The notes below the pieces were generated by a model. That model was not told where the DNA came from. It saw only the letters and a list, made by a program, of their open reading frames with translations, and searched no databases. This document shows positions 26,838 through 49,510 of a stretch of 64,000 bases of DNA, piece after piece. This DNA comes from Coptis chinensis. Lineage: Eukaryota; Streptophyta; Magnoliopsida; Ranunculales; Ranunculaceae. The DNA is taken from contig CM027380.1 in the NCBI GenBank assembly GCA_015680905.1, positions 56,065,001-56,129,000 of the forward strand. Direction: 5' to 3'. Numbering within the stretch: position 1 is the first letter of the stretch; each line of letters opens with the position of its first letter. The position numbers and the translations under genes were made by a program.

Positions 26838-28230
26838 TTAGTTCAATGCATTTGCATCAAGTTTCTGATTTTCCATTAATTATTCTTTGATGTTAGTTTA
26901 ATGTAGTACGTTGCATCCAGTTTTCAATTTCTCATTAATTATTCTTTGAGGTTAGTTCAATGTAGTTGTATCAAGTTTCCAATTTTCCGTTAATTATTAT
27001 TTGAGGTTAGTTCAATGCAATTGTATCCACTTTATAATTTCCTACTAGTTATTCATTAAGGTTAATTCAGTACAGTTGCATCCAGTTTTCGATGTTTCGT
27101 TAATTAATATTTGAGATTTGTTCATTACATTTGCATCCAGTTTCTAATTCCCCGTTAATTATTTTTCTAGGTTAGTTCGATAGTTTATAATTTATATACA
27201 ATTTGCATACATGTAAGAGTTTGTTTTTATAAACTCACTTTTGTTTTGGATTCCTAATTACTCGTAATTACTCATATGAGAAGGCTATGAAAGCAGACAT
27301 TTATTTTTTAAGGTTAGTGCGATACAATTACATCCGACTTTCGATTTCCAGTTAATTTTCCGTTAGTTAATTTCTGATTTTAGTTTAATGCAGTTGCATC
27401 CAGTTTTTGGTTTTCCGTTAATTATTCTTTGAGATTAGTTCAATGCAGTTTCATCCAATTTCTGATTTTATGTTAATTGTTTTTTGAGGTTAGTTCAATG
27501 CATTTGTATCAAGTTTTCGATTTATCGTTAATTATTTTTTGAGGTTAGTTCAATGCAGTTACATCAAATTTATAATTTCCCATTAATTATTCATTTAGGT
27601 TAGTTCAGTGCAGTTTCATCCATTTTTCAATGTTTCATTAATTAGTCTTTGAGATTAGTTCATTGCATTTGGATCCAGTTTCTGATTTCCTGTTAATAAC
27701 TCTTTAAAGTTAGTTCAATATATTTGCATCTAGTTTCTGATTATTTATGCTTTGAGGTTAATTTGATGCAATTATATTCGGTTTCTGATTTCCCGTTAAT
27801 TATTCTTTGAGATTATTTCAATGCATTTACATTTAGTTTCCGATTTCCCACAAATTATTCTATGAGGTTAGTTAAATGCAGTTGCATTCGGTTTTTGATT
27901 TTCTGTTAATTATTTTTTCAGTTTAGTTCAATGCATTTGCATCCAATTTTCGGTTTCATATTAATTTTCATCTGAGGTTTGTTTGATGTATTTGCATACC
28001 GTTTCCGATTTCCCTTTAAATATTTTTCAAGGATTTGCATCCAATTTATAATTTCCCGTTAGTTATTATCTGATGTTAGTTTAATGCAATTGCATTCAGT
28101 TTCCGATTTATAGTTAATTACTTTTTGAGTTTAGTTTATTGCATTTGCATAAAGTTTTCGATTTCCCGTTAATTACTCTTTGAACTCAGTTATGTATTTG
28201 AATCAAGTTTCCAATTTCCTTTTAATTATC
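26838..28230. repeat. Tandem array 1 of a degenerate 55-bp unit
   Basis: About 25 units of roughly 55 bp. Unit starts were read at 26838, 26893, 26952, 27007 and 27062. Consensus parts are TTAGTTCAATGCA, TTTGCATCCAGTTT, GATTTCCCGTTAATTATT and CTTTGAGG. The units are diverged from one another and several are truncated. No protein is encoded: the phase is not a multiple of three and stops are frequent. Confidence 0.92.
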
Positions 28231-28409
28231 CAATGTGGTGTGTAATACCAACTTCTACTGATCCATCTGTAGTATCTTTGCAAACATGACATAAAAAGTA
28301 AATTATGTTTGATTTACTATGTGGGATCATCGAAGATTATCCAGTTCCCGATTTCCCATTAATTATTTTTAAATTATGCATGACTCACTATGTGGAATCT
28401 TCAAAGATT
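28231..28409. repeat. Junction between the two repeat blocks
   Basis: It holds a small local duplication: GATTTACTATGTGGGATCAT and GACTCACTATGTGGAATCTT, each followed by C-AAGATTATC, about 70 bp apart, with a repeat-unit scrap between them. Confidence 0.6.
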
Positions 28410-29690
28410 ATCTACGAACAAGTGTTGTTATATTAATTATTCTGAAAAATATTTGCAAATATGCATAACTATTATATATTAATATTATATTGATCACTCA
28501 ACCAAATTTCTTATAATGTGAAAACCTCACTCTCCATTAAAAAAAAAAGAACTCGCATTTGATAAAACCCTTCAACATCATTTTGTTGTTTAATAAAAAA
28601 AGTTTGATTGAAGTTTTGTGAGATTGCCTAATAAAGTGAAGTTCATATATATTGAAGCTACTTGAATAGCAAGAAGTTCCCAATCATACGGAAGAGATAA
28701 GATAAACATCATTTTAAATGCAAAACTATACTTATCGAGACATTCCCACAATATATAACCCAACTATGTTTTGAGGTTAGTTCAATGTATTTGCATCCAG
28801 CTTCTGATTTTCCGTTATTTATATTTTGAGGTTAGTTCAATGCAGTTGCATCAAATTTCCAATTCCTGTTATTTATTTTTTGAGATCAGTTCAATGCAGT
28901 TGCATCTAGTTTTTGATTTCTCGTTAATTACTCTTTTCGGTTAGTTCAATACATTTGCATCCAATTTTCAATTTCCTATTAATTGTTCTTTGAGGTCAGT
29001 TCAATGCATTTGCATCCAGTTTATGATTTACCGTTAATTATTCTGTGAGATTAGTTTAATGCATTTGCATCCAGTTTCTGATTTCTCGTTTATTATTTGA
29101 TAAACTTGCATTTGCATCTAGTTTCCGATTTCCCGTTAATTATTATTTGAGGTTAGTTCAATGAATTTGCATCCAGTTCCCGATTTCCTGTTAATTGTTT
29201 CTTGAGGTTAGTTCAATGCATTTGCAACCAGTTTATTTTTTGAGATTAGTTCAGTGAAGTTGCATCCGGTTTTCGATTTCCCGTTAATTATTTTTTAAGA
29301 TTAGTTCCACGCATTTACATCATGTTTCCAATTTATAATTAATTTTTCTTTGAGGTTAGTTCAATGCAGTTGCATCCAATTTTAAATTTCCCGTTAATTT
29401 AATCTTTGAGGGTCAGCTCAATGCATTTGCATCCAGTTTCCGATTTTCCAACAATTTTTTTTTTTTAATTTTTAATTTTATGTTAGTTTGAAGTATTTGC
29501 ATTTAAGTTTTGATTTTCCGTTAATTATTCTTTGATGTTAGTTTAATGCAGTTATATCCATATTCCAATTTTTTATTAATTACTTTTTAAGATTAGTTTA
29601 ATGATTGCATTTGCATATAGTTTCTGATTTCCGTTAAATATTATTTAAGGTTAGTTCGATGCATTTGTATCCAGTTTTCGGTTCCCCATT
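28410..29690. repeat. Second copy: leader 2 plus tandem array 2 of the 55-bp unit
   Basis: Leader 2 (28410-28776) matches leader 1, and array 2 begins at 28777, 1,939 bp after array 1 begins. It has about 17 units of the same 55-bp repeat. Just beyond, at about 29818, the words AACTATGTTTTGAGG that end leader 2 occur once more, a trace of a third copy. Confidence 0.9.
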
Positions 29691-29880
29691 AATTTTTTTA
29701 CATTAGTTTCATTCAGTATTATATATTTTTTAAAATATTTGTCATTATTGCTTTGCCGTAATTTTTTTTTTCATTTTTCTATTATATATTTTGTGATGTT
29801 ATTTTTTGTATAATTGTTTTTAACTATGTTTTGAGGCCGTATTAAGGATATATTCGAAATAAGTTGGTGTTTTATCATAG

Positions 29881-30131
29881 ACACTAAAATTGTATGATTT
29901 GTAATAGGGAATTGGTTTCTACAAATCACCTATTTTTTAGCAATTTTTTTTATTTGATCAAATATATAAGAATTTGAACACTAAAAGTGTTTGATTCGTA
30001 ATAGGGAATTACCTTTTATAAATCACCTATTTTTTAGCAATTTTTTTTTATTTGATCAAATATATAAGAATTAGAAATACACTTAAACTCTCCAAATATA
30101 AGAATTAGAAATACACTCAAACTCTCCAAAA
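29881..30131. repeat. Nested tandem duplications (97 bp and 34 bp)
   Basis: Two copies of a 97-bp unit start at 29881 and 29978 (ACACTAAAA, then GTAATAGGGAATT, then AAATCACCTATTTTTTAGC). They are followed by two copies of a 34-bp unit starting at 30063 and 30097 (TATAAGAATTAGAAATACAC). No coding content. Confidence 0.85.
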
Positions 30132-30668
30132 AGATTCCATGTACGTGGGATTGTAGGCTATATATAAAAAAAACTATCTTTCACATTAAAGTACCACATA
30201 GGAGAGAGAAAATCTTCCATTAAAGGTGTTTTTAGTATATAGATAGTAGATACGAAAGTATATGGACAAAATAGTAAAAACAAACCTAAATAGGACAAAA
30301 ATGAACGAAGAGATTTAGAGTAACAAAACAAGTTCTAGAGTACGCCCTTTTATGGGTGCGCTGATTAAAGGCTGATTAAAGACTCTGCCATGCAATACAC
30401 TTTCCCCCTTGCCTGATGGAGGGCCCAGATGTGATAGTGCAGGTACAACCTGGGTACTCTAGAATTTGATAACAATAAACAATAGTATTTCACTATTTGC
30501 AGGACTGTAGATGAAGGTTGCGCTCTTTATAACAGTTTAGATGTTTTACAAGGTTATTTCTGTCATTTCAAATTTTACTTTAATTACACGTGTGGTGTTT
30601 GGAAAGTGATTAACAGATAAAACCTTTCCATCTATAGGGTGCTATGGGGATCCATTATTATGGATTAA
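30132..30668. other. Spacer left of the Helitron candidate
   Basis: No gene recognised. TATATATAAAAAAAAC near 30160 is TATA-like but leads nowhere identifiable. Confidence 0.5.
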
Positions 30669-30952
30669 CTAGCCATTTGGCCTGGCCTATGGCCGGACAT
30701 GCTACATAGATAGTTAATGACTCAAAAGCTTAAAGCCCACTTAAATAAATAATATATGTATATTGATAGCTAATGATTTATTGCATACTTTGTTTGAAGG
30801 GTTTATGTTTTTCTATTTTTTTTGAAGGGTTTTGACGAAGGGTTTTATTTCTATTTTTGGGTTATTATTGTCCTAGATAACAATTCTTATCATCCTCACC
30901 TATATAAACTATATCAAAATATAACACAACAATCAAGAAATAGAACACGTAC

Positions 30953-31440
30953 TCATACCATATGTTTAAGTGATTTTAACAAACTTGGGCTAGGAATGGC
31001 AACCAATGGTATTCTTTTCTTTAAAACAATCCCAAACTTCTCTGATAAATCCAGCTTAGTCCCTTCTGGCAAATTCCAATTAAATGAGTGCAAGAGTGAA
31101 ACCAATACAGATATTAACATTCTTTCACCTAAGGAATCCCTACACATATCCTTCTCCCATAACCAAATGGGAGATAATGAAAATCATTTCCTTTGTAGTT
31201 ACATCCTTTACTAACATCTAGGAATCTCTCAGGATCAAACACTAAGGGGTTCTCCTAAGCTTCGGGGTCTCTGTGCATCGCCCATACGTTGAAAAATACT
31301 CTTGCACCCTTAGGGACAGTATAACTGCCAACTACACATTGTTTACTTGGGCTATGATCGAGGAACCAAAAGAGGCACTGCAGGATGCAACCTGAAAGTG
31401 GTATTGCAACTGTGTCTTTGGCATTGAACCCTTTTTAAGC
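30953..31440 (-). pseudogene. Cytochrome P450 C-terminal fragment (CYP706/CYP76-like)
   Basis: Minus-strand landmarks in order: [44 protein letters not shown] (the heme-cysteine loop FxxGxRxC) and LDLSEKFGIVLKKRIPLVAI before a stop at 30953-30955. This is the last exon portion of a plant P450 of the CYP76/CYP706 type, which would oxidise small lipophilic substrates at the ER. The G after the heme cysteine region is D here. An in-frame TAG at 31255-31257 replaces the tryptophan of the usual EAWENP, and the N-terminal 300 or so residues are missing. It is a captured, dead fragment. Confidence 0.88.
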
Positions 31441-31904
31441 TAATCGATCTCCACAATTTCGCCATAAGATTTTGAGGTTTAATGCTTCCAAATCGCAAGT
31501 AAATAAATTTGATTTTGTATTTACTTCTTATTCCCAGTCTTTCAAATTGGGAGAAACTTTAAATCTCCTCCTAAATAATCCAAGTGCAAGTGTTAATATT
31601 AACAACTGTTAACTAATAGGAATGAATCTCACAGCCAATCTTAGACAGCAAGTTATAAGACCATATTGTTTTGTTAAAGACGATTCAAAATTAAGATATA
31701 CAACATCAACCTCGGTAAAATTCCTAGCGCAACATTTCTTTTTGTTAGTAACAGCATATAAAGAACTAACAAAGACAAAACATACATCATTCAATTAATA
31801 TTTAATTAAACAATGATTATAAAAAATTAGACAACATAAGAAGCAAATATGAAATATATATATTTGACAAAAAATACGAAATACAAATAAAGGACTTACA
31901 ATAA
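31441..31904. other. Unassigned segment between captured P450 and maturase scraps
   Basis: AT-rich with no recognisable domain. It may be intron or UTR carried along with the captured genes. Confidence 0.4.
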
Positions 31905-32352
31905 GAATTTTGCAATGTGGATTCTTGATGAGCATTTGTGTGTGCTTGTGTGGCATGGAACATTCTAAAACAGGGCTGTGGATCTGGATCACGACCCCCT
32001 TGAGAAATTCCAACTTCCTAAACTGCCTGATGCATTGCTTTAAGCTTGTTGTTCCTGATAAAATAGTACCCACACTTTTTCACTTATGATCTTTCCACCC
32101 GTGGCAGTGTATCTGAGAGTTGGATACACAACCCGATGGCATAGCACATGGTCAAGAAACATTATACCTTTTGTTATATGTTCAATTGGGAGGCTCTCAT
32201 TGTCAAGCTTGAGGAGAAACTTTTGATCACAAAACACAATCAATTGCTTTCTCAATGTAGCCGCATCTGCCCGAGGCCCCCTAACTCCAATCAAAATGTG
32301 ACCTCCATAACGGATATAGTCCATTTTCCGAGTCTTGTCAGGCCCGCTTAAA
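31905..32352 (-). pseudogene. Fragment of nuclear group II intron maturase (nMAT4-like)
   Basis: The minus-strand frame gives MDYIRYGGHILIGVRGPRAD, ATLRKQLIVFCDQKF, LPIEHITKGIMFLDHVLC, YPTLRYTATGGKI, then in a shifted frame SLKQCIRQFRKLEFLKG. This order matches the maturase/reverse-transcriptase-derived part of plant nMAT4, a nuclear-encoded protein that helps splice mitochondrial group II introns. Only about 150 of some 750 residues are present. At least two frame changes follow GGKIISEK and LEFLKG. It starts just after a TTGATAG acceptor-like site. A captured fragment, not functional. Confidence 0.85.
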
Positions 32353-33554
32353 AGCAACAAATCCTATCAATGTATAATCAATCAGTTTGTTATATTGACA
32401 TGCAAATATTATTTTTTCGCTTTAGGAAATTGATTTATCAGTGTCATGCAGCTCGAGCCCTCAAGCGCAAACCACAGGGTTGACTTTTGTGCATCAGTAA
32501 GCATGAAATAGCAATGCAAGGGAATTTAAAGGACAAACATGGTTTAGCAATAATGTTTCCATTTCAAATGGATTCCGAGAATATTGTTAGATTTACCAGA
32601 AAATTTGAGAAATAAGCTGAGATACAAAGAGTATTACCTAAAGTCCCAAACTAAAAATGAGTACTACTACTGCTGATAATTTTGAAGGGCTAAAATTAAG
32701 AAAGTTTGAAAAGTGATTTCTTCCCCAAGAATCAAAACTTGAATTAATGCCATGTGCCCGATATGAGCCAAGTAGAACATTTCCTGTCAAACCAACTTAC
32801 AACCAATGTAAAAAGCGAAAGTGTTCAACTGAAAGAAACAATTGTCCCTACGCTATGTTGATGAGGATGTCCTGGTGCTACGTACACCTTTATTATCTAT
32901 CTTCAGAATGTAAGAGCAACATTCTCATAGATACATGAAAAAAAAAAAAAAAAAAAAAAGAAACGCTCCTAATCGACTTACTGATTTGCACAAAAAAAAA
33001 ATTATAAAAAAAAACAAAAAACAAACAAACTGAGTACCATGTCCGGTGGGGAAGTCACAATCATGATGTCAATAGAGGCCCTTGTATGTCTTTATTGGCT
33101 GCAACTGGGAGAAAATCTTTTTGTGGTGTCATCACCCTCACCACCCAGTACTCCACATTAAACACTCGCTTCAGACAATTGGAAGAAACTTACAGAGAGT
33201 GCGAGAGCAAAATTCCCCTCTGATTCAATAGTCTCCATTTGCAAGGAAATAACAAATCTAAAAACGAATCAACTTTGGATCTTTTCATCCCAACGTTCAT
33301 TGGTCAGACACTCAGACTTCAGACCAAGAACATCTATAAATTGAACAGGAAATTTTCACAACCATTAAAGGTGCTCATTCTGGTGCCTGTGCAAAACACT
33401 CTACTCCTCTCGAACTCTGGTCAGTTCAATCATGCGGTGCATCCTTGCATAGGAATTAGGAAGCTAAGTGAATCATTCTCCATTGATTTGGGCCTCAAGG
33501 CTGCAGCTCAATGCCATTAGATTGTGCACATGCTCAACATAGATACTGATTTTG
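32353..33554. other. Unassigned segment between maturase and transporter scraps
   Basis: No family recognised on either strand. It contains A-rich runs (32938-32957 and 32992-33030). The plus-strand frame 33239-33520 has no domain and is antisense to part of the transporter scrap's 3' side. Confidence 0.4.
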
Positions 33555-33755
33555 TGTAACTTGTACACAGATTTGGAGATGTACTTGAAGAGAGGGATGA
33601 GAGCTAAGGTCCAAAAGATAAAAGAATGCACCCCATATACTTCCTAGGCTCAACTTTCCTAAAAAGTCGGTCTTGTAGACATAGAGGAGAGTTACTGAGA
33701 TCACCATAAACCACACCAAGACATTGGTAAGCCAATGATAGCACTGTTGAGCAGG
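33555..33755 (-). pseudogene. Fragment of a KUP/HAK/KT potassium transporter
   Basis: The minus strand encodes LSLAYQCLGVVYGDLSNSPL and VYKTDF, and, after a frame change, EVYGVHSFIFWTLALIPLFK. These are the first membrane segment region (LAYQSLGVVYGDLSTSPL) and second segment (FGVLSFIFWTLTLIPLFKY) of plant KUP/HAK potassium transporters. The rest of the roughly 780-residue protein is missing. Weak similarity may continue to about 33420. Captured, broken fragment in the same orientation as the neighbouring scraps. Confidence 0.85.
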
Positions 33756-34524
33756 AAAACTTCTTGAAACTTTGGTTCAATGCACAAAATGTTTTAGTAA
33801 ACAACACAAATATAGGATAGATTAACAATGTAGAGAAGCTTCCTTGATAAAACAGGAAAGTTCAACACTCAAAATCTAATAACTCAATTTAAGCAAACCA
33901 ATGACTAATTATACATTGTAATCTTGAACCTCTAACTTAGGCACCACTATGTATATGTCTATAGAAATCCCTCTAAACATTACAAACATATGATTCAAAG
34001 CTCCAAAGCTTGATAAAATGTCAAATTGGCGAAGAAAAAGTAACACTACTTAGTAGTCTATAAAAGGTCTTATTATGGACTAAGAGGTAAGAAAAGAGAA
34101 ATTATAAATAATGTATCTGACCAGGTTCAATATCAACTTTTGCTTTACCCACCAAGCTCTGTATGCACGATGGTTGCCACAATAACAACATCCATTGCAA
34201 TACAAACACACTCGCTGATGCAAAATTCCATACAGAATTTACATGGAATACTCGGACTACCCTAACAACTATGTATGACTAAGATTAGAAATCAAATTGA
34301 AAAGAGACTTGATCAACCAAATTATGAATGTGTTCAAATTTGTAAGGTATAAAAGAAAGATATTATTCTGACTAAATTATTTATTATCCACTGCAGAGTG
34401 TATACAGTTCAGTGTAGTTGCTTCCAAATCATGGTATCTAGTTAGTAGCCTAGATTTGCTATATCTACAGCTCTACCAACTAACTTGACTGGTAAGATCA
34501 AGCTAAAAATGCCAAGGAATTGAT
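33756..34524. other. Unassigned segment left of the LTR element
   Basis: AT-rich with no gene recognised. It belongs to the same Helitron candidate, directly left of the nested LTR element's target duplication. Confidence 0.4.
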
Positions 34525-34529
34525 AAGAG

Positions 34530-36172
34530 TGATAAGTGCTCAAAAAGTGCTATTTAACCCTCGATTATGCCTCTTGTTTAGCCATCTTAGTGGACTAATA
34601 GTATTTATAAGTTGTGTTTTAAGATTCTACAGGTGAAAAAGAGAGTTTTGTAGAATATTAGAGAAAAAGGGGTAAAATGAAGCAATTCGGAGCATTAATG
34701 ATCACATGGGAAGCCCGTGGACAACCATGGAGAAGGCCAAGGAATTGGAGCTATTAAAGATGTGACTTGGACCTATTTTAAAGCCTATTTGGAAGCCCAA
34801 GGCCAAAGGATTCGTTGCTTGGACCAAAGCATAAAAGATGATAGAAGGATAGAGCGAGGAAGAGAGAAAATCGGCTTATCGCGTGCGGGGGATGTATCGG
34901 CGTCGAGACGCATTGAGTGCATCGGGATGCATAAATTGGCGATCGAGGCGCATTAATTAAGTCCGGGGATGCATGAATGAATAATCGAGCAGCATGCCAA
35001 TTCTTTTAGCCAATTTTGAAAGTTTTGAAGTCGGACTCACGGAAGAAGAAATCTATTTGTATTAGGAAACAAATGACGGTTTGGAATGCTTCTAGAGCTT
35101 ATTGTAACCCCTATAAATAGAGGACCTAAGTGCCTCATGTAATTGGCCAATTCACTTATATTCTTGTCTCGAACTTTGAGAGAGAGATTAATAATAAAAG
35201 ATCGGTTTTAACTAGTCGAGTCTTAATAAATTAGTCTTTCTAGTCTTATGTTCTTCGACTCTTCTTCTTCTCATTCTTCGTGTTCTTCCTTCTATATGGA
35301 AGGCTAATCTTCTCCTTCAAGGGAGGAGATGAAGCCGGTGCTTAAGGTTTAATGATTCTTACGGTTTATGGTGTTCTTGTCGGGTTAGTTCTTTATGTTT
35401 TTAGTTATTAGTTCCATTGCCCACACTAGGGGATGGAAGTATAGATTAAGGTTTTTATTTATTACAATTGAATATCATGCTAGTTTAGGGTTTTATTTAT
35501 TGCAATTGAATATTTGCTAGTAACATGCTTTTATTTATTGCAATTGAATATAATGCTAGAATAGAGTTTTATTTATTGTAATTGAATATTATACTATTAA
35601 TCTCTACTTTTCTTCTAATTGTGTAGTGTTTTAGAGTAAGGGAAGTATTCCTTGTGTTTGCCTTAGATGGTGATTCATTGAATAGCTGCCCAAGCTCACA
35701 TAAAAGGAAAGAAGATACTAGTAACATGAACATAGGAACAAATTTAAGTAGAGTTAATTGTTAACGATGTTTCATCCAAAAGGGCATCGGCACTCGCTTG
35801 ATTGCCCAATTGTAGTCTACTTGGAGAACAACATGAAGCAAAAGGTCATTGAATCAAAAGCATTGGTGGATTTGAATCTCTTGAATCTATCTCTCTCATA
35901 TTCTCTCCCTATTTCCAATTCTTAGTTTTAGTATAAGTTTAGTTAGTTAGTTTAGTTTAGTTTAGTTTAACATTAGAATCTATAATATCTATAATAATAG
36001 TTTTAATCCCTCAAACCCCCTTTCCAATCCTGTCCTTCATATAAACATACATTTAAAAGTGGAACGATACCTTACTCATCCTTTACTTATTGAGGGATAA
36101 TTAGGTTTTGATATGCTTCTATTTTGTTCAACGACCATACATCATCTCATACACAAAAAGGAGGCAGTGTCA
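34530..36172 (+). repeat. 5' LTR of the Athila-like element
   Basis: 1,643 bp, TG...CA. It contains CCCCTATAAATAGAGG (TATA box, about 35110) and the hairpin region GAAGGCTAAT...GGGAGGAGATGAAGCC (about 35300-35335). A TTTATTTATTGCAATTGAATA word repeats four times (about 35450-35590). Confidence 0.95.
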
Positions 36173-36174
36173 AA

Positions 36175-36187
36175 TGGCGCTGCTGCC
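36175..36187 (+). promoter_or_regulatory. Primer-binding site of the Athila-like element
   Basis: TGGCGCTGCTGCC, two bases after the 5' LTR. It is one base off the TGGCGCCGTTGCC type typical of many plant Ty3/Gypsy elements. Confidence 0.75.
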
Positions 36188-36689
36188 ATTTTAAGTTGTT
36201 TATGTTTAACATTTTCTTTCAAGATTAGAAGTTTAGATCTTAAGGTAATTTTAGCCGTATCATCCATCTTTTTGAAAAAGAGAGAAGCTTGAAGGACATC
36301 TCAAAGACAAGATCTACCATCCAGGTTAGTCGAATCTTCATTCTTTTTATTTCATTCTTAGTTTAGTTGCATCATAATTAGTTTACTTTTATTGCTTTCT
36401 AGTATAATTGCATTTAGGATCTTTTCAACAATTGAAGTTGTAAGCCAACACAGCGAAATATCAAACTCTAGTGTTTCTTGTCTGAATCTTGACAAACGGA
36501 CTATCGATGCGTGGGGCGTGGTACTTAAGCAATCCAAGTGATTCACCATAACCCTAGAAGAGACTTTAGACAACGGGAGATACTAGCTGCAAAGCCCAAC
36601 CAAGTTGAAGGAAAGTAGTTTTGCATATTAGTATAATTTAGAATAGTTGCATATTAGTTTAATTGCATTCAAGCATAATAGGATAGTTT

Positions 36690-37700
36690 TCATCATCTTC
36701 GCAAGATAGCAAGAATACTAGGCAGGATTGATATAATGGCACTAATGATGGAGGTGTTTTGGACACCAATAATCCTGAAGCTATCCCACCCATGGAAGCA
36801 CAACAGAGGAAGAAGTTGGCGATTTCTATTAAGCCAATCATTGGAGACCCACCCAAAGTGATTGTCTTTCGAAGCGAAACTAACCAGGTTTGAGCTTAGA
36901 GCATCGGTAATCTCTATGCTTCCAAAGTTCAACGGTTTGAGATAATGTTGACCTTATGTTCACATGAACAAATTTCTATCGATCCTCGAGAACTTTCAAG
37001 AACCGAGAATATCGGGGATGAGATTATCAAAATCATTCCGTTCCCCTCTCACTCGAAGGTAAAGCATCCGAATGGTTAAGCGCAAAACCGATCAATTCAA
37101 TAGATAATTGGGAGAAGTTGAGAACAAAGTTTATGAACAAGTTTACCCCCCTGAGAAGACAGATGCCATGCAGCAAGCCATCAACAATTTCAAAGGGAAG
37201 GTGACTGAAGAATATCATCAAAGCTGGGAGAAATTCAATAATCTGCTAGTCTCATGTCCACATCATGGATACCATAAGAGCACACTTGCTCATTTTTTCT
37301 ATCGGGGACTCTCGATGATGAACAAGCAGATGATACAGTCAATGCACAAAGGCAAGTTTACATCGATGGATGGAGAGGAAGCTTACAACTTTCTCGAGAA
37401 TTTAGCTAAAGAAACACAACAGTAGACTACTAGCAACAAGGATGTCGCTATCATGGAGGGGGAGCCAAGGCAATTTGGCTACAAAGCACATGAACAATCA
37501 GATCAAGAACTGAAGTCTACATTGGCCCGGCCACCGGCGATTGAAACTCGAGTAAGAAATTTAATGGGTTCTCTATGAATCCCTCCAAGTTCAACAAGTC
37601 TCAAGCTAAATCTCTCCCAGTCATGCAAGTTAGCCAATCTGCGAAGTCTGTTCGGACACTTCTCATGCAACTCTAGAATGTCCTAGTTACTATCAACATG
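36690..37700 (+). mobile_element. Athila-like gag region (broken)
   Basis: The capsid-type gag signature KFYPPEKTDAMQQAINNFKG followed by SWEKFNNLLVSCPHHGY and FYRGLSMMNKQMI (about 37125-37340) is the Athila gag layout. The frame is interrupted a small number of times, so this part is a fossil. Confidence 0.85.
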
Positions 37701-37848
37701 CATTGGTTGGAGAGTACAATATAAACTCATTTCGGAGGCCCAACCAAGGTGGTAATAACTTTCAAGGCAATTATTGGAGGCGAGAATCTTTGGACCCCCG
37801 TGTTCTCAAGATCAAAGTTATATTCCATAGACAAGTCAAGTTTCACAG

Positions 37849-39360
37849 TTGGTCCCTCAACAACAATTATACTCTCAACAAAATTCCAATACAAGTGGAG
37901 AGTTAGTGCCTGATCCTAGGAGAAATTATGCCGCACCTGCCAACCTGGAGAATGCAATTACTTTGCTATCACAGAAAAATCAGAAGTTTGAAAGTGTTCT
38001 AGAGCTTATTGCACAGTCTCAGCTCAATCTCCAACAATTTCAGGCAAGTCAATGTTCTAGAATGGAGTCTCTAGAGGCTAAGGTCGACAAACTCACCACT
38101 GCTTTGCCTGTAAAGACACAAGCCACTCAACCTAGCTTATTGGAACCAATATTGAAGAGTGAAGATGTATGCCACATTGGGACAACTTCTAGTATTGATC
38201 ACCTCCATGATCATGTTAGCTCAGTTACTACTTTCAGATCAGGATTGAAGATAGACAACAAGGTTGACTTACCTTCTCATGATGACATTGCTACAGAGCA
38301 ATCGGTCAAGATTTCAAATAAAGTTCAAAAGGAAGTGGGGGAAATCCTTTCCACTCCCATTTGTCAAGACAACCAAGACAAGATATGCAAGAATGCCAAA
38401 GAGAAAGAAAAGAAGACACATGATGATGTGTTTGTACCGAAGGCACCTTTTCCTATGTTTTTTGCCCAAAGCAAAAAGGACAAGCAATTTTTAGAGATGA
38501 AGGAGGCATTTGAGAAAGATAACATCAATATCCCCTTTCTCAAAGCGATCAAGCAGTTGCCATCATATGCCAAATTCTTGAAGGATGCATGCAACATAAA
38601 GAGAAGTACTCATGTTCCAAAGCGAGCATTTCTAGCTGGACAAACAACATCTATTATCCATCAGCAAGCTCCAGTCAAGCTCAAAGATCCAGGAAGTCCT
38701 ACAATATCATGCAAGATAGGAGAAAAATTCACAGGTAATGCTATTTTAGACCTTGGTGCTAGTGTTAATCTCTTGCCATATCATGTGTACCAAGCGTTGG
38801 GCTTGGAGAACCTAAAGCCTACAAAAGTCAAATTGAAGTTGGCTGACCGTTCTACCAAGATTCCCAGAGGCATAGTTGAGGATGTTCTTGTTCAAGTAGC
38901 CAATTTCTACTATCTAGTGGATTTCATTGTGATAGACACCAAGGAGGCCTTTGATAAAATTCCAATTATTCTAGGCCGACCTTTCCTCGCTACCTCAAAA
39001 GCTTTGATAAATTGTCACAATGGTGAAATGAAGATAAACTTTGGTAAGATGTCCATGGACATAAATATCTTTCACCTGTTGCATAAGGATTGTGATGAAG
39101 CCGAAGGTGGAGAGGTGTACTTCCTTGATAGTATGATACAAGAATTCATCCCATTCGAAGATACAATTGAAAGTGCTCAATCTACAAAAAACTATGATGA
39201 ACCTGAGAACCACACCACAGAGGCGTTGCTAGCCATGTTATTAGAATCTCAGCAGAAAATTCAGGATTTAAGTGAGCATAATGGAAAATTGGCAGAGAGA
39301 GTATCATACCTTGAGAAAATGAACTTTACATTTCAGGATGAACAACAGACTTCTGCCTAG
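37849..39360 (+). mobile_element. Athila-like gag C-terminus and aspartic protease, open over 503 codons
   Basis: The N-terminal part is a helical linker. The middle is lysine-rich with KAPFPMFFAQSKKDKQFLEM. The protease domain has the active-site variant AILDLGASVNLLP, then KLADRSTKIPRGIVEDVLVQ and IPIILGRPFLATSKALI, the closing flap-and-IILGRPFL signature. A coiled-coil-like tail (LEKMNFTFQDEQQ) ends the frame. The active-site triad is DLG instead of the more common DTG/DSG; DLG is known in plant Athila-type proteases. No reverse-transcriptase domain follows. Confidence 0.88.
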
Positions 39361-41771
39361 AAAAATCAGTTACTAGAGAATCAGCTTAAAGAAGTTTTGG
39401 AAAACAACCAGAATCTAGAAACTGAAATGAGTCTTCTGAAGCAGAAAGTGGACCATATTGATAAGAAGCATTGCACTACTGAAGCTTTTTCTAAACCATC
39501 ATTGTCTGAACGAGAGAAGTATGTAAACCAGTCTACCACCCACCTTGAGCACAGTCAGCCAGACATCCATTATCATCACTGTGGTGGTAAATGACACATC
39601 AGATACTATTGTCCTGTTAGAAAGAATGATTTTCATCAATCTTCTATCTGAGAGGAACCACAAGGCCTATCACAAAATCATCGGACACTGAAATAGTTCA
39701 AGGTAGAGAAACAACTTCACCAACAATCTTTCCAAAGATATCAAGGAGTATTTTTGATGACCCACAAGGTGAGACCTCCTCGCCCCTCCAAACATTCGTC
39801 GATTTGGATGAGAAAATCTGATCTCCTCACTCCAAATTGATAATGCATGATATAAAGTCTTGAGAATATGACTTTAAAAGACTCACATTACGTCTTAGGG
39901 ATCGGCGTAAAAGACCTAAAAATTAAAGCATCAATGGTAACATCTTCCCTTTTTCTCATTCATTTCATTTACTTAATTTCTATACATTGAGGACAATGCA
40001 TATGTTAAGTTGGGGAGGGTGTACTTTGAGAAATGAATTTCAAAAATTAGTTTTCAAAAACAAAAATATTTTTGTTTCTATATTAGTAGCATGAGAAAAA
40101 TGAATTTTAATGATGAGTCTGGGATATAGATTCTATACTGCTTAGTGTTGAGTTTGATAGATAGTCGATATTATTGATTTCATTACCGCTTAGACTATTT
40201 ATTATGCTCGGACATAGTTCTTATTGATAGAATTCTTTATCAAGGCACCACCATAGTACTTGGTCAGTTTTGTGTACTTTTGCTAGAAGAGAGATTTAAA
40301 CCCCTAGTAAACTAGAAGTAGAATTTTTAGACTTAGCCGTGAGACTTGAGCTTTATACCCATTCTTTGGAGAGTTCTTACGAAAAATCTGAGTCTTAGTG
40401 ACTCAACATCTTTCAGTTCTTTATGTCGTTGTAATATAGTCTCATTATTCATTAATTTGGTTAATCACGAAGTGACATCAACTGGGGAGATAGCCATTAG
40501 GTCTTGTAGTCTATTCGAAACAGAGTATCATACTGATAAGCCAAGTAGTGAACCCATTCAGCCTTTATCCCACCTAGTAGGACCATCATGTTAAACCCAC
40601 TGCTTTACAATAAGCCATTTTCTTTCATAAAACCCCTACCCTTTACCCCAACTCGGACAAGGAGTATAGCCAAAATCATTATCATCCATACCCATATGTT
40701 TCTGAGAATACGAGGGGCACAAGGAGGAAGAAAGACCACAAAAGGAAGATTACAAGGAAATATCAGAGAGATACAATGAAGACCATCATTACGTTCAAAG
40801 TGAAAGAAGCTAGTGGAAAACAAGCATATCCGGTACTAATCAAGGATATACCATCGAAGTCTTAAAAAAAAAAAAAAAAAAAAAAAAAAGTTGAACGAAT
40901 GGATGGAAAAGCTAAGACAAAGGAAGAATTTTCTCTGCAATCTGAGAATTTGAAGAAATCTTCCAAAGAAAGAAGCAAAACCCTTAGTGTTTTTCAGAAA
41001 CAACCTTAGAATCCTTTTTACCTTTCCTTCATAAACCAATACCCAAGTCAAGTTACAACCCATGACTTATCACTACAGTATGGTAAGAAGTCTAGAATAA
41101 GTGAGAGGATGCTAAAGTGAAGGACCCGACACTTCATATGTGATTGACATTCTTTCCATGAGACTACTTTTATTCAGAAGTCTGTTTTTCAAGGTAGTAT
41201 GTGGGATGTTCGTATGCATTATTCTTTTCCCTACATACATGAGGTAAAATAGTAGACCATCTTCTGAGAGATTCTTTGTTGAGAGTATGACTAGTGAGGA
41301 TTGAAAGTCGAGATTATCTACCTATAGTAAACTAGGGATTCCATTTCTTGGATAGGAGAGTAAAGGAGATTGACTAAGTACACACATAAGCCTTGATTGA
41401 GAATTTTGTCAATTTTTACTATCTCCCATCATAATCTATGAGTCTTTGCAGCAATGTAGTTAGCAATGGATACCGTCTGTTGGAGTAAACACTAAGTGGG
41501 TAAGGAATTTCTCTCTCTGAAAAATACTATCATTCTTGAACATGCTATTGATTGATTTTGTGGGATATCACCTGAAAACCCTCAGGAGACTATAACTCGT
41601 CCTTTTTGGGGAACTTAAAGGTTTAAAGCCTTGTTGCATATGGTAAATACAATCGCGATGCCTGCGAAAATGAGTTAGGATTTTATTTTTGTTATTAGGA
41701 TGTGATTTTGATCACTTATCTATTTTTTATCTTATTTGCTAAGAGACTAGCAAATGGCTAGTTGGGAGTTG
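39361..41771 (+). mobile_element. Non-coding 3' interior of the Athila-like element
   Basis: No pol domains here. A CCHC-like HYHHCGGK lies near 39570, followed by non-coding sequence, a run of about 25 A at 40865-40889, and GGCTAGTTGGGAGTTG directly before the 3' LTR (weak polypurine-tract candidate). Confidence 0.7.
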
Positions 41772-43444
41772 TGATAAGTGCTCAAAAAGTGCTATTTAAC
41801 CCTCGATTATGCCTCTTGTTTAGCCATCTTAGTGGACTAATAGTGTTTATAAGTTGTGTTTTAAGATTCTACAGGTGAAAAAGAGAGTTTTGTAGAATAT
41901 TAGAGAAAAAGGGGTAAAATGAAGCAATTCGGAGCATTAATAATCACATGGGAAGCCCGTGGACAATCATGGAGAAGGCCAGGAATTGGAGCTATTAAAG
42001 ATGTGACTTGGACCTATTTTAAAGCCTATTTGGAAGCCCAAGGCCAAAGGATTCGTTGCTTGGACCAAAGCTCGCAAAAGAGGATAGAAGGATAGAGCAG
42101 AAAAAAGAAAATCGGCTTATCGTGCGTCCCGGGGACGATGTATCGAAGTGTCCGCATTGAGTGCATTGGGACGATAAAAAGCGATCGGGGACGATTGATT
42201 AAGTCCGAGGGCGCATGAATAACGTCACGCATGAATCGACATAATCTTGAGCCAATTCCTTCTCGGTTTTGAAGGCGAAGTTGGACTCTGGAAGAAGTCT
42301 ATTTGTATTAGGAAACAAATGACGGTTTGGAATGCTTCTAGAGCTCATTGTAACCCCTATAAATAGAAGACCTAAGTGCCTCATGTAATTGGCCAATTCA
42401 CTTATATTCTTGTCTCCAGAACTTGAGGCAGAGAGAGATTAATAATAAAAGATCGGTTTTAACTAGCTGAGTCTTAATAAATTAGTCTTTCTAGTATTAT
42501 GTTCTTCGACTCTTCTTCTTCTCATTCTTCGTGTTCTTCCTTCTATATGGAAGGCTAATCTTCTCCTTCAAGGGAGGAGATGAAGCCGGTGCTTAAGGTT
42601 TAATGATTCTTCTGGTTTATGGTGTTCTTCAATCAGGTTAGTTCTTTATGTTTTTAGTTATTAGTTCCATTGCCCACACTAGGGGATGGAAGTATAGATT
42701 AAGGTTTTTATTTATTACAATTGAATATCATGCTAGTTTAGGGTTTTATTTATTGCAATTGAATATTTGCTAGTAATATGCTTTTATTTATTGCAATTGA
42801 ATATAATGCTAGAATAGAGTTTTATTTATTGTAATTGAATATTATACTATTATTCTCTACTTTTCTTCTAATTGTGTAGTGTTTTAGAGTAAGGGAAGTA
42901 TTCCTTGTGTTTGCCTTAGATGGTGATTCATTGAATAGCTGCCCAAGCTCACATAAAAGGAAAGAAGATACTAGTAACATGAACATAGGAACAACCTTAA
43001 GTAGAGTTAATTGTTAACGATGTTTCATCCAAGAGGGCATCGGCACTCGTTTGATTGCCCGATTGTAGTCTACTTTGAGAACAACATGAAGCAAAAGGTC
43101 ATTGAATCAAAAGCATTGGTGGATTTGAATATCTTGAATCTATCTCTCTCATATTCTCTCCCTATTTCTAATTCTTAGTTTTAGTATAAGTTTAGTTAGT
43201 TAGTTTAGTTTAGTTTAGTTTAACATTAGAATCTATAATATCTATAATAATAGTTTTAATCCCTCAAACCCCCTTTCCAATCCTGTCCTTCATATAAACA
43301 TATACTTAAAAGTGGAACGATACCTTACTCATCCTTTACTTATTGAGGGATAATTAGGTTTTGATACGCTTCTATTTTGTTCAACGACCATCATCTATCT
43401 ACATCACCCATATAACATCTCACACACAAAAAGAGGAAGTGTCA
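41772..43444 (+). repeat. 3' LTR of the Athila-like element
   Basis: 1,673 bp, colinear with the 5' LTR including the TATA box, hairpin and four-fold TTTATTTATTGCAATTGAATA words. It ends GTGTCA before the target duplication AAGAG. Confidence 0.95.
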
Positions 43445-43449
43445 AAGAG

Positions 43450-43925
43450 CTTAATGTTCGTTTTGAGTTCCTTGCTAAACTGTCAAGTTGGGATCTTCCA
43501 ATAATCCAAACTTTAGTCTCCAAATTTCCAAAAACAGTTACAATCTGTATTTGATGAAAGCCTATACACACCTTATATCCACTTTTTATCATGTATTCAA
43601 TATAGAGTAAAACAACAAAATAACTAAACAAAGGTTCTTCCTATTAGTTGGATGAGCTTAAAATTTATTAATGTGGATGTTGTAGATAGTTTAGTATACA
43701 CAATCTATCTATGCACAAACAATAATAGCAATGAGATTAATGTAAGTGAGATTTTCCTTACTTTGCTAATAATTCTTGATGATCCTTTCCAAACTTTTTA
43801 GCTGCACCCTATAAGAAAGTGCGAGAATAATACGTTGAGAAACAGCTCAAATCAAACTTATTCGACTGCATGAAATTCGTCTTTTTTTCTAATTTCAACT
43901 TTCAACTGTAACAAATATTGCTTAC
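43450..43925 (-). other. Segment with a small exon-like unit of unknown origin
   Basis: The minus-strand segment 43808-43762 is bounded by a TTATAG acceptor and a GTAAGG donor and reads GAAKKFGKDHQELLA in one open phase. That phase does not fit the preceding ABI5-like exon, so it probably comes from another gene, which I do not recognise. The remainder has no feature. Confidence 0.35.
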
Positions 43926-44200
43926 CTTGACCGAATTTAAATGTTGAAGATATTTTAGGCCCAGTTTTGCTGAAAAGCATTTGTGATTTGCTAACAGGTG
44001 CTGCGGCTTTATCACCGAAAGGCCCCTGAGAGACAATCCCCGCTTTGACCAGGAAATCTTCGAGAGTCATCTCACCGAGAGTGGGTTGCCTCTCCTGAGA
44101 TTTATTCCCTTGATTACTGCTAGTATTGTTGTTGTCTTGACCTTGCTGAATATATCTCCATACCTCATCGACGGTTTTTTTGCTGAGGCTGGGCTGATGG
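43926..44200 (-). pseudogene. Fragment of an ABI5/AREB-like bZIP transcription factor, first exon part
   Basis: The minus strand encodes SLSKKTVDEVWRYIQQGQ followed by ERQPTLGEMTLEDFLVKAGI. These are the conserved C2 and C3 phosphorylation blocks of group A bZIP factors (ABI5, ABF/AREB), which bind ABA-response elements in the nucleus. A proper donor GTAAGC follows at 43925. The basic-region/leucine-zipper exon is absent from the neighbourhood and the usual N-terminal block upstream is replaced by unrelated sequence. The frame itself is open. Truncated fragment in the same orientation as the other captured scraps. Confidence 0.88.
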
Positions 44201-45208
44201 TTATCTCTATCAATCGAAACAAAATCATACCTTTCTTCTTTCAACAATGTTTCATGACACAAAACATTGCATCTTTTTTTGTGTGTGTGGAGGGATTGAA
44301 GGGATGACCTTAGTTTAATTTTGGAAGAAAAATAAGAGAGAAGATTTGAAAAGATGATTTTTTTTTTCCAGAGTTGGGGTGTTTTGTACAATTGAAAAGA
44401 GTGGGATTTTGGTTTTTATCTATTTTGAGTTACGAACAATTGAAATTTGCAAAAAAGGGTGTAGATTTACTTTTTTTATGACGAATTATTGTAAAATCTA
44501 ATGTGTCAGTCTCAGAGAAAAAAGGGGGGCTGACGTGGGTCACTGGGAGCATTCTCAATTACTCAGTATTAATGGTCTTTGATGGATTGCAGTTTGGTGT
44601 ACATTTTGTAGTACTAAACAAATTCCGAAAATCTATGGATTTGCAGCATCTTATTTTGACAGATACAGAACAACGATTGGAATGTTGGAGAAGCAACTGT
44701 TACTCTCTTGCTGTTAAGGCCTTTTTGCTTATGCATCAAAAAGAAACACAACGAGCAACAAGAACTAAAATACCATAATCTGCTAAGTACAAGTCAGAGA
44801 AATCACGTAACCATTATAAAACTCAGTTCAATCCCAACAAACAAGAATTATCAAAAATTATAAGACGCTATCATCAAAGCTATACTCAGTGCCATACAAA
44901 TCAGACAGAGAAAAGAGATTGCCTAAACTGGGAACTAGCTGACAAAAAATAACACAGGTTGGATCCCTTTTTTGTGCTGTATAACAGAATGACTTGGAAG
45001 GATAATATAGGGCAAGAGAAGAATGCAGTAACTATCTACTATCCCAAGCCCACGACATGGACTTCATAGACTACAAGTTACATTATGAAAAGGACACCAG
45101 ACGAACATAGATAAGTTGAAGAGAGAAAAAGGTTTGCTAAACCGTATATCTTTGTTCCAAAAAGAACTGATTATGCAAATAAATGCAGAGTACCGTTTTT
45201 GCTTTTTC
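44201..45208. other. Segment between bZIP and rpS9 scraps
   Basis: No domain recognised. Part of it (44800-45208) reads like 3' UTR of the rpS9 fragment on the minus strand. The plus-strand frame 44503-44778 has no family signature. Confidence 0.4.
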
Positions 45209-45302
45209 TCATTGCTTGACCCATTGGAAGCTTTTCCTTGCCTTTGCCTTTCCAGGTTTCTTCCTCTCCACCATACGTGGATCCCTCGTCAAGAAACCAA
45301 CT
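45209..45302 (-). pseudogene. C-terminal exon fragment of mitochondrial-type ribosomal protein S9
   Basis: The minus strand reads [20 protein letters not shown] then RKSFQWVKQ and a TGA stop at 45209-45211. This is the C-terminal tail of bacterial-type ribosomal protein S9 (LTRDPR-VERKK-GKAKARK-FQ), here most like the plant mitochondrial version. The reading frame begins after a GAATGAAG acceptor-like site. Only the last 30 or so residues are present, with the 3' UTR apparently following, so it is a captured last exon. Confidence 0.85.
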
Positions 45303-45376
45303 TCATTCAAAGAGAAAAATAAATTAGAACTGGAGTGTAAATTCAAAACTGCAATATTTGGTTCATTAATAGAATA

Positions 45377-45695
45377 TAGGATCTTTTAGTATTATCCCCT
45401 ACTAGATGAGCCAATTAGGATTTCCCCCAACTAGATGGAGAAATTAGGGTCTCCCTCCTGAGTACACACAAAAAAAAGAAACCATGTTTTTTTTTTGTGT
45501 GTACTCAGGAGGGAGACCCTAATTTCTCCATCTAGTTGGGGGAAATCCTAATTGGCTCATCTAGTAGGGGGGGTAATACTAAAAGATCCTAACCTACCGT
45601 GTTTTTTTTTGTGTGTACTCAGGGGGGAGACCCTAATTTCTCCATCTAGTTGGGGGAAATCCTAATTGGCTCATCTAGTAGGGGGGTAATACTAG
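45377..45695. repeat. Foldback repeat: inverted pair plus a third direct copy
   Basis: Arm 1 (45377-45477) and arm 2 (45486-45591) are near-perfect reverse complements of about 100 bp around an 8-nt loop. Both contain CTCCATCTAGTTGGGGGAAA and GTGTGTACTCAGG when read in arm 2 orientation. A third copy (45601-45695) repeats arm 2 directly. The copies differ at only a few positions. A transcript would form a long hairpin. Confidence 0.92.
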
Positions 45696-45722
45696 TTAAC
45701 CCTAGAATATATATAAGAAAAA

Positions 45723-47128
45723 GGGTTATTTAGCTTTTAGCCCACTTTATATATGGATATTTGGGTTTGGCTTTTCTAAGTTGGTTTATTCGTTTTTGGC
45801 CCCAATTCCGTTAGTTGACTGGGTCAACTTTAGCTGCTCCGTAGTATATTTTAAAATGGCAATTTTACCCTTCACATGAGTTGTGCGTGGATTTTGTACA
45901 TACTAGTTTCGTAAAATTTTGATTTTGAAATTCAATACAAATTTCGAAACATAAAGTTAATAAAGTGGGGCGACATGATTTTAATCGGAACATCCAACGC
46001 CAACCCCCTCAAAGTTTCCCAGAGCAAATTTTTTGGAATTAGATTGGTGAGAACGCGCTCTTGCAATGTTGCATTTCTCATTCCCTCATTTTCCCTCAGT
46101 CTAAAATCTTCCCTCTTCTACATTTTCCCCAAATCTGAAACCCTAGTTACATTCTTACACCCAATCTAACGGCTGCTGCTCTTCCAAGAGCTATATCCAA
46201 TCTAATGTCGGTCGTCCACTATTCCCTAGTTTACGGAATCCGCCAACTATACCTTCGTTATCTTTTGCTACATCAAATTACCCATCTTTCTTCCAGATGA
46301 AATTCTAGAATTGTGTTTAGTAAGGCTTCTTATGATTACTCTCATGACTGCAAGAAATGGAGATGCTTGACATCCATAGGTAGGTTCGTACGTTTGAGGT
46401 GAGAATTTCAGACACCATGGCTGTTCTTCTTTGTTGTTATAAAAGATGGTTACTATTCTGGACAAATTCAGGCATTGGACACATCTCTCGATCGATGGCA
46501 TAAGATCAACTGTGATATTTTAAGGGGGGAGGTTTCAGTTCTCTATTGCTAGCATTGGGGAAGATGTTTATGTTGTTGGAGGTTGTTCTAGCTTGATGAA
46601 CTTTGGGAGGGTTGACCAGACCTCTTTTAAAACACACAAATGGGTATTAGTGTTTAATTTAACCCCATAGCTAGATTATGGCTTAAAGTTGCACCAATGA
46701 AGTTAACAAGAACTTCATCTATTCTTGGAGTGCTTGAGATCACTTATTGGGGTCTCTTTGGCAAGATTTTGAAAAGATTTGGTGAGATTTGAGAGATAAA
46801 CAAGATTTGGTTCAAGAGTAGCAGTAGTTGTTGGATGGAATTTAACTGAACGAACAAGATTACACCACTCCTATTTCTTTTAGCCTTTAGTAATTTACTT
46901 AATCAGTTCAATAAAAAAAATAAAAGATAAATTAATGAAAAACAAAATCACATGTGGCACGTGTGAGGGGTATTTAGGCCATTTTAAAATTATGATGAGC
47001 AAAACATACTGAGGAGTTAAAGTTGACCCAGTCAACTAACGGAACTGGGGCCAAAAATGAATAAACCAACTTAAGAGAGCCAAACGCTAATATGTATATA
47101 TAAAGTAGGGCCAAAAGCTAAATAACCC
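45723..47128. mobile_element. Second gene-carrying Mutator-like element (Pack-MULE)
   Basis: Inverted ends of about 170-180 bp start GGGTTATTTAGCTTTT (45723) and mirror at 47128. Shared inner words include GTTGGTTTATTC, GGCCCCA-TTCCGTTAGTTGA and CTGGGTCAACTTTA. A perfect 9-bp target duplication TAAGAAAAA lies at 45714-45722 and 47129-47137. There is no transposase; the core is an F-box/kelch gene scrap on the plus strand. Its inverted repeat is unrelated to that of the element at 3110-4422, so these are two different MULE families. Confidence 0.93.
46290..46770 (+). pseudogene. Captured F-box/kelch-repeat gene fragment
   Basis: Plus-strand pieces: LPDEILELCLVRL (F-box start), ARNGDA replacing the usual CKKWR through a frame change, then HGCSSLL, LDTSLDRWHKINCDI, GRFQFSIASIGEDVYVVGGC, SSLMNFGRVDQTSFKTHK and LVFN. 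The order F-box then kelch blade VYVVGG...V.VFNP matches plant F-box/kelch proteins, which select substrates for SCF ubiquitin ligases. Several stops and frame changes are visible and the C-terminal kelch blades are missing. Carried inside the MULE. Confidence 0.85.
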
Positions 47129-47137
47129 TAAGAAAAA

Positions 47138-47284
47138 TAAGACATGCTATATGCATTTATTTCTTTTATCATCTATAATGATGTTTGCTTTAATTGATCA
47201 GATTATGGAGAACATCCTCATTCAAATTATGTAGAGTGGAGAGAATCTTTCAAATTTCAAGGACGGCCAAGCTAAGTTTGTTGG
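47138..47284. other. Short spacer between MULE and hAT element
   Basis: No feature other than the left copy of the hAT target duplication (47277-47284). Confidence 0.5.
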
Positions 47285-48225
47285 TAGGGCTGGTCATCGA
47301 GTCGAGCTGCTCACGAGTAACTCGAGCTCGGCTTGTCAAAGGCTCGACTCAAACTCGTCCGCGCAAAAATATGAATCAAGCTTGAGCTTAATTTAAAGCT
47401 CGTTCTAGATGGCAAGTAACTTGAGTTCGAGCTCGAGCTTGAGTAGCTCGTGAGCTACTTGTTTTATAAGCACATACCCATACCCATACCCAGTTTATAT
47501 CCCACAAGTCCACAACCCATAAAGCTATGACCCATTGAACCGTACCCACTTGCCCAACGCCCCAACATACTTAAAAGAATCAATAATGGAATACACAGGT
47601 CTGTCACCATCAACTTTCTTCACGGTTTTAGGTATAGCAAATTAGCAATAGCTTTCTATTATCTTACTTCTAGGTTATTTGCTTCACCACCTCCACGTCT
47701 CCACCACCAAGAGTCCAAGACCAAGGTCTTATGAAGTTGAGATGGAACCTTTAGCACCACCTGTACAACTTAGGAAAGCTACTGAAGAAGAGTTGAATGT
47801 TTATGATGGATCCGATTCTAAAAAAACTTTGCTTATGGCTATTAAGGACATATCTATTCTGTTTCTGGGTTTTTTAAGTCAATTTCAAGTGTTGGGTATT
47901 TGTTAGTTTTCATTTTTATGCAATTTTAGTAGATTAGATTATGTTGTGTGTCTTTTTGATTATATAGAGATGTTTAATCAAAAAATTTGTTCGAATTCAA
48001 ACGAGCATAATTTGAGCTTGAGTGTTTGCTCGAACTCAAGCTTGTAGTGAAAAATGAGTCAAGCCGAGTCGAGCTCAAGCTATTAGCACAACCGAGCGAG
48101 TCAAGCTTGATCCCTATATTAAGCTTGAAATAGAGTTCGAGTCGAGCTCGAGCATGCTCACTGAAGGTGCGAGTCGAGTTTGAGCATGACAATACTCAAC
48201 TCAGATAACTCGATGAGCAGCCCTA
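47285..48225. mobile_element. hAT element carrying a host gene fragment
   Basis: The ends TAGGGCTGGTCATCGAG and CTCGATGAGCAGCCCTA are inverted repeats. The 8-bp flanks TTTGTTGG (47277-47284) and TTTGGTGG (48226-48233) match at seven of eight positions. The subterminal zones are packed with GAGCTCGAG/CTCGAGCTC words on both sides, as in hAT elements. There is no transposase frame. The core holds a fragment of a membrane steroid-binding protein gene. Confidence 0.85.
47690..47852 (+). pseudogene. Captured fragment of a membrane steroid-binding protein (MAPR/MSBP) gene
   Basis: The plus-strand frame has PRPRSYEVEMEPLAPPVQL and ATEEELNVYDGSDSKKTLLM then AIKD. Plant MSBP/MAPR proteins have a TM segment, then a PPVQLGE-TEEELKAYDGSD-KKPLLMAIKGQIYDV block opening the cytochrome b5-like domain. 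The match stops at MAIK, where the domain would continue, so only the N-terminal part of one exon was taken. The frame is open across the fragment. It sits between the two subterminal zones of the hAT element. Confidence 0.83.
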
Positions 48226-48233
48226 TTTGGTGG

Positions 48234-49508: not shown

Positions 49509-49510
49509 AC

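Follow-up and report, generated by a model that had tools for sequence, protein, structure and literature searches.

A Coptis chinensis Helitron with sense-strand pieces of six host genes and a probable stepwise assembly from two sources

That plant Helitrons collect genes is already well known, and for the gene-fragment Helitrons of maize a stepwise capture has been published (Dong et al. 2011, PMC3288121). How the pieces are gathered is not settled; cell experiments with a reconstructed bat element have demonstrated 3' read-through, and models with internal repair or template switching have been put forward as well. Here we describe a case with an unusually readable history, located in a stretch of 64,000 nucleotides of the goldthread Coptis chinensis (GCA_015680905.1, contig CM027380.1, C4:56065001-56129000 of a 935.6-Mb genome; "the window"). 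On its minus strand a Helitron extends from position 44582 to position 30669 and carries pieces of six host genes, all in coding-sense orientation, together with one non-coding stretch from beside an LBD gene. We regard it, with a probability of roughly 0.88, as a non-autonomous Helitron of a large family which was assembled stepwise from two sources, a block of the type found at C5:96.70 Mb lying inside a frame known from other copies. As the family offers hundreds of termini, surviving donor-like genes and readable intermediates, the order of events could be read and capture models could be told apart. The case shows a route by which one element can gain sense-strand pieces of six unrelated genes.

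To delimit the element both ends were compared with the rest of the genome. An earlier note, made from the letters of the window alone, had proposed a Helitron 3' end (hairpin, CTAG, host T) at 30669, and these 30 bases do recur elsewhere as an element terminus. In a first look 40 matches were scored among 661 candidates, the window copy included, and the 39 others begin at 30656-30668, that is at the adjacent host base or up to 12 bases beyond. A family pattern of 30 bases, from which the window copy differs by one mismatch, was found 557 times in the genome (268 + 289) if up to three mismatches were allowed, and the reversed control pattern was not found at all. The corresponding 5' pattern of 34 bases has 883 matches (434 + 449; control 0). 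Among family matches to 43700-44600 that reach the 5' side most stop at 44582-44583; in query numbering they end at 883-892, mostly at 883-884, and a few extend up to nine bases further.

When 17 other copies were set side by side at their 5' ends, 15 start with TC and 14 with TCAAAGACC, which is also the start of the window copy, and an A precedes the end in the window copy and in 14 of the 17. L015, which is the same place as L012, and L025 are not in this table, and five copies were moved by one or two bases so that their ends line up. At the 3' end the window copy and all seven other copies shown share the hairpin, CTAG and a following T. The window copy lies between A and T without a target duplication, in the manner of Helitrons. 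Its 3' terminus carries one change in the hairpin stem. A 6-bp stem is predicted for two other copies that were folded (z -2.45 and -2.54), and the window end folds differently and less well (z -1.51, with 22 of 200 shuffles equally good). Both termini also belong together: if exact matches on C1 to C3 are listed, 33 of the 100 listed 5' ends are followed within 15 kb, on their own strand and in the right order, by a listed 3' end, at a spacing of 3574 to 13893 bp, and none was paired on the wrong strand or in the wrong order. As a separate observation, near position 1593 of one locus (L006) a family 3' end is followed directly by sequence 79% like the family 5' end, as if two elements stood head to tail.

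The unit from 45381 to 30669 had been taken for a candidate Helitron in the earlier note, and a long terminal repeat (LTR) retrotransposon inside it, which accounts for 8.9 kb of that unit, went unrecognised. Its LTRs align over 1695 columns with 92.2% identity (62 mismatches, 23 gap openings), its aspartic protease matches PF13650, and the target duplication AAGAG (5 bp, perfect) is present on both of its sides, at 34525-34529 and 43445-43449. A related mosaic at C1:81.64 Mb lacks it. Without this insertion and one target duplication the Helitron is 4994 bp long.

For most of the cargo, donor-like genes persist in the genome (an nMAT4-like open reading frame (ORF), a bZIP ORF, the C2 gene and polygalacturonase matches), and the ungapped identity to donor-like loci is 93.8 to 97.5% for the bZIP, C2, KUP, LBD-side and nMAT4 pieces. 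The bZIP gene at C9:83.92 Mb has an uninterrupted ORF of 323 codons, in which the bZIP domain scores below the curated cut-off; we take the piece to be of the ABF/ABI5 type. An exon-like unit reported before as having no known parent is the end of the 251-codon first ORF of the gene at C2:90.02 Mb, whose first exon gave only a Pfam match below cut-off, so that the gene stays without a name. The related KUP locus on C8 matches PF02705 below cut-off (E 0.0007). This best KUP match (L059, C8:8.006-8.010 Mb) adjoins a TIG-domain match, also below cut-off, in sequence that presumably resembles CAMTA factors, and the locus may itself be decayed or composite. The C7:90.067 Mb copy of the LBD-side stretch is found some 0.2 kb downstream of an ORF of 184 codons that has a LOB domain; since this gene reads opposite to the Helitron, the stretch is not counted as sense cargo. 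For the maturase piece, where we keep the assumed name nMAT4 of the earlier note, the parent-like gene at C2:217 kb has an ORF of 723 codons (PF01348). A longer copy of the polygalacturonase piece (in L069) matches PF00295 at 2.9e-8, and matching sequences that may have been the donor are located at C6:86.29 and C2:98.13 Mb. A part of the intron of this piece (31512-31858) recurs at C2:110.6, C5:95.5 and C7:35.4 Mb with the neighbouring exon unmatched; it may contain a small repeat. About 110 bp (43882-43991), common to the frame copies described below, have no assigned donor.

Five fragments had been named in the earlier note, and all of them exist and are coding on the minus strand. The bZIP, KUP, nMAT4 and P450 pieces are cargo; rpS9 lies outside the element, and the polygalacturonase piece and the LBD-side stretch had been overlooked. 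Six out of six genic pieces in the sense of the Helitron would occur by chance in 1 of 64 cases if the pieces were independent. One must keep in mind that they may not be independent, as three of them may have come with one block.

Table 1. Features of the Helitron and its surroundings in the window, and junctions between cargo pieces (junctions read by eye).
Feature	Position	Strand	Remarks
Helitron	30669..44582	-	5' end 44582, 3' end 30669; termini common to hundreds of genome places
Helitron 5' terminus	44543..44582	-	host a, then TCAAAGACCATTAATACTGAG...; from side-by-side copies and pattern matches
5' family-common region	44241..44582	-	most listed matches span query 541/589/610 to ~884
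ABF/AREB/ABI5-type bZIP fragment	43992..44201	- (sense)	donor-like gene C9:83.92 Mb, 93.8%
C2:90.02 Mb gene fragment, part 1	43450..43887	-	end of long first exon, GT splice site, following intron; 95.4% ungapped
Nested LTR retrotransposon	34530..43444	+	LTRs ~34530-36172 and ~41772-43444; aspartic protease, ORF 37831-39360
C2:90.02 Mb gene fragment, part 2	34201..34529	-	96.0% ungapped; adjoins part 1 in donor
KUP/HAK potassium-transporter fragment	33488..34200	- (sense)	related loci C8:8.008 Mb, C4:96.4 Mb
Non-coding LBD-side stretch	~32383..33493	.	copy at C7:90.067 Mb, downstream of intact LBD (LOB-domain) gene
nMAT4-like maturase fragment	31929..32349	- (sense)	parent-like gene C2:217 kb, 97.1% ungapped identity
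Polygalacturonase (GH28) fragment	31411..31947	- (sense)	exon end, GTAAG splice site, intron
bZIP far-side remnant, ~12 bp	31399..31410	-	beyond polygalacturonase interruption of bZIP
Cytochrome P450 fragment	30975..31399	- (sense)	PF00067 in window itself, 1.3e-22
3' family-common region	30669..30974	-	many genome matches span query 1-125 only
Helitron 3' terminus	30669..30698	-	hairpin CCGGCCATAGGCC(A/G)GG, then CTAG, then host T
Organelle-type rpS9 last exon	45209..45302	-	PF00380; outside Helitron
Junction frame/C2 gene			6 bp homology (A run)
Junction C2 gene/KUP			0 bp
Junction KUP/LBD-side			6 bp (GCCCAA)
Junction LBD-side/nMAT4			~30 bp filler
Junction nMAT4/polygalacturonase			2 bp (CA)
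Junction bZIP remnant/P450			1 bp

The argument for an assembly from two sources comes from the relatives of the mosaic. The copies at C7:90.51 Mb and C1:9.96 Mb, which we call frame copies, have both ends, a bZIP piece split by polygalacturonase and the P450 piece, and no block; at C3:99.46 Mb polygalacturonase is found with the 5' end and the first part of the bZIP piece, again with no block. The composite at C5:96.70 Mb, in turn, consists of the C2-gene, KUP, LBD-side and nMAT4 pieces, and it has the same junctions C2 gene/KUP and KUP/LBD-side and the same filler before nMAT4 as the window. It extends further into the outer donors, covering 427-1865 of the C2 gene compared to 1071-1865 in the window, and nMAT4 to 2142 compared to 1923. 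The frame copies together with this longer block of identical junctions are an argument that the window lineage contains the internal part of a C5-type block within the bZIP/polygalacturonase frame. Ahead of the P450 piece, as far as the bZIP remnant, the frame copies have sequence that the window is without, 4.1 kb relative to C7 and 4.7 kb relative to C1, as derived from their alignment coordinates. When the frame copy on C1 was searched against Pfam in one reading frame (L070, 5100-6900), nothing matched.

Most or part of the mosaic recurs at two other loci, which indicates that it moved after assembly. The copy at C1:81.64 Mb (C1a) has every cargo piece, with 66 bp of the bZIP region missing, and a 5' end with a 5' flank of its own; at C6:92.98 Mb (C6a) the mosaic is present from 34469 through the 3' end. 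The C1a copy (L068, C1:81.633-81.643 Mb) is cut just past the base matching 30912. The sequence that cuts it resembles, if reversed, the 3' terminus of a different Helitron family (hairpin GTGCCGTACGGCAC, followed by CTAGT), and a same-strand 3' terminus of the window Helitron family is located about 42 kb from the cut, at C1:81599695.

Judged from the junctions, the history probably ran as follows. A piece of about 0.9 kb of a bZIP gene would have been captured, and polygalacturonase sequence would have entered within it, the P450 piece presumably being near the 3' end by then, as in several other copies. The block of C2-gene, KUP, LBD-side and nMAT4 sequence would then have replaced what lay between the bZIP and polygalacturonase parts, and the 4.1 to 4.7 kb ahead of the P450 piece would have been lost. 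The finished mosaic would have transposed to several sites; the LTR retrotransposon inserted later, into the window copy.

Several observations weigh against this reconstruction. The order of steps rests on few copies: the C1a copy is without the 3' end and the C6a copy without the 5' part, and at C3:99.46 Mb the second bZIP part, the P450 piece and the 3' end were not seen within the 10 kb read. The C7 frame copy has CTAA in place of CTAG at its 3' end, and the first part of its bZIP piece agrees with the donor in no more than 72.9% of 210 columns. The C5 composite is at most a candidate Helitron, as 7.9 kb of sequence around it yielded no family termini; it shows a 404-bp difference beside nMAT4 and is without 21 bp of nMAT4 that the window has kept. 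A donor of the P450 piece was not found, six of the seven nearest matches read (two of them weakly) bearing the family 3' sequence. An empty site was not found in the same genome through either flank: the right flank (44583-44834) matches no other place in the genome, and the 40 scored of 1631 candidates for the left flank (30100-30668) are, apart from the window, just short stretches of dispersed repeats. Finally, although 157 or more Rep-domain matches exist in the genome (with 150 scored out of 2000 candidates), none of the 61 compared on C1 to C3 lies up to 25 kb inward of the compared family ends. The comparison used every one of the 100 listed 5' ends and, out of as many listed 3' ends, 82, exact matches only; the 18 remaining 3' ends are beyond C3:64 Mb, where the 5' list stops.

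Among other explanations, one would have the block arrive as a nested Helitron or other transposon within the Helitron, its ends having decayed since. An insertion of one Helitron into another is described for maize (PMC3288121), and one Helitron seems to have hit the C1a copy. The borders of the block in the window, however, lie inside donor sequence (C2 gene, nMAT4) with overlaps of about 6 bp and 2 bp, and no family terminus was found at them, termini of other families having not been searched for systematically. We consider this entry improbable. Still less probable is capture by read-through, in which transposition passes the 3' end and uses a later terminator, so that cargo piles up 3'-ward. 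It is reported for Helraiser, the intact element taking flanking DNA in about 11.7% of transposition events in cells (PMC4778049). In the family described here, however, the C9 donor-like gene has the bZIP part in one unbroken ORF, which the C7 and C1 frame copies have split by polygalacturonase; the four-donor block lies inside the frame with its borders within earlier cargo; and no internal family terminus was found in the window Helitron at up to 8 (5') or 6 (3') substitutions.

The version of the earlier note, a single unit from 45381 to 30669 with five serial captures including rpS9, can be dismissed almost entirely: its five gene pieces are real and coding on the minus strand, but the family 5' termini are at 44582, the positions 44835-49510 form a separate paralogous stretch, and the sole other match to 45130-45400 stops at 45378. 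What was proposed there as a 5' end is the edge, at 45379, of a foldback repeat whose arms (45396-45477 and 45489-45570) are 100% complementary, and we rejected this border. The rpS9 exon is present about 630 bp outside the Helitron and was rejected as cargo as well; it belongs to the stretch 44835-49510, which is paralogous to C6:92.396 Mb and on the window side is broken by insertions.

A read-through at the 3' end leaves no cargo within earlier cargo, whereas template switching or an exchange between elements does so, and the internal position of the captures accordingly appears to fit the latter better. Within the two-source assembly it is likely that the junctions were created by template switching at short stretches of homology while DNA was repaired or replicated, or by an exchange between two Helitrons, and that the element was moved in trans by the Rep/helicase of others. 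The earlier picture of a gene-shuffling Helitron with serial capture in one coding orientation is supported in both respects, but the pieces do not seem to have arrived only singly, as the four-donor block seems to have entered as a unit. We tentatively add, as a proposal that is rather doubtful at present, that cargo in this family spreads mainly through the exchange of ready-made blocks between composites by internal template switching. If this were the case, the orientation on one strand would be inherited with the block and not selected at each capture, and Helitrons would represent a common pool in which gene pieces recombine. A literature search that left subscription journals mostly uncovered turned up no paper on block exchange or a sense bias of Helitron cargo, and the passages of PMC2575219 and PMC13317346 do not treat the sense orientation of cargo.

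A scan of the minus strand found no Rep/helicase domain in the three reading frames of the window Helitron; the cargo pieces are gene fragments with stops, with the 8.9-kb insertion in addition in the window copy. The longest reading frame over the bZIP piece has 185 codons, and its first ATG is well within the bZIP part. GT splice sites are retained after the exon ends of the C2-gene and polygalacturonase pieces, and chimeric transcripts would be possible as far as the sequence goes.

The surroundings of the Helitron contain further repeats. About 1 kb past its 3' end the window has an array of a 55-bp tandem repeat (26838-29709), and a related array occurs in L070 (8211-10000), about 0.6 kb past the 5' end of the C1:9.96 Mb frame copy. 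Beyond the 5' side there is the foldback repeat with an extra partial copy (45396-45684) and a 1.4-kb stretch with 103-bp inverted ends (45741-47109); the interval 45379-47128, which comprises both, is absent from the C6 paralogue. Pieces of a reverse transcriptase and DUF4283 at 12376-13236 and 16505-16894 on the minus strand probably belong to an element resembling LINEs (long interspersed nuclear elements). The G+C-rich part 49700-57600 contains a reverse transcriptase fragment (minus strand) as well as tandem copies of a 91-bp unit at 53135-53776 and is perhaps a second LTR element.

Compared to known systems, the element shares with Helraiser/Helibat (PMC4778049) the 5' TC, the 3' CTAG, a hairpin upstream of the 3' end and the capture of host sequence. 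Helraiser encodes its own transposase and captures by 3' read-through, whereas no Rep/helicase domain was found on the coding strand of the window Helitron and its captures look internal. Pack-MULEs and gene-carrying CACTA elements are likewise non-autonomous and carry several gene fragments. They have terminal inverted repeats and target duplications, whereas the element in the window ends in TC and in hairpin and CTAG, between A and T. The non-autonomous Helitrons of maize (PMC3288121) also have a CTAG 3' end and several gene fragments per element; their stepwise capture was likewise deduced by comparing related copies, and nested Helitrons and internal loss occur among them too. Compared to them the window element comes from another plant and has other termini; its donor-like loci could be located within its own genome, an earlier capture encloses a later one, and the four-donor block is common to a second composite.

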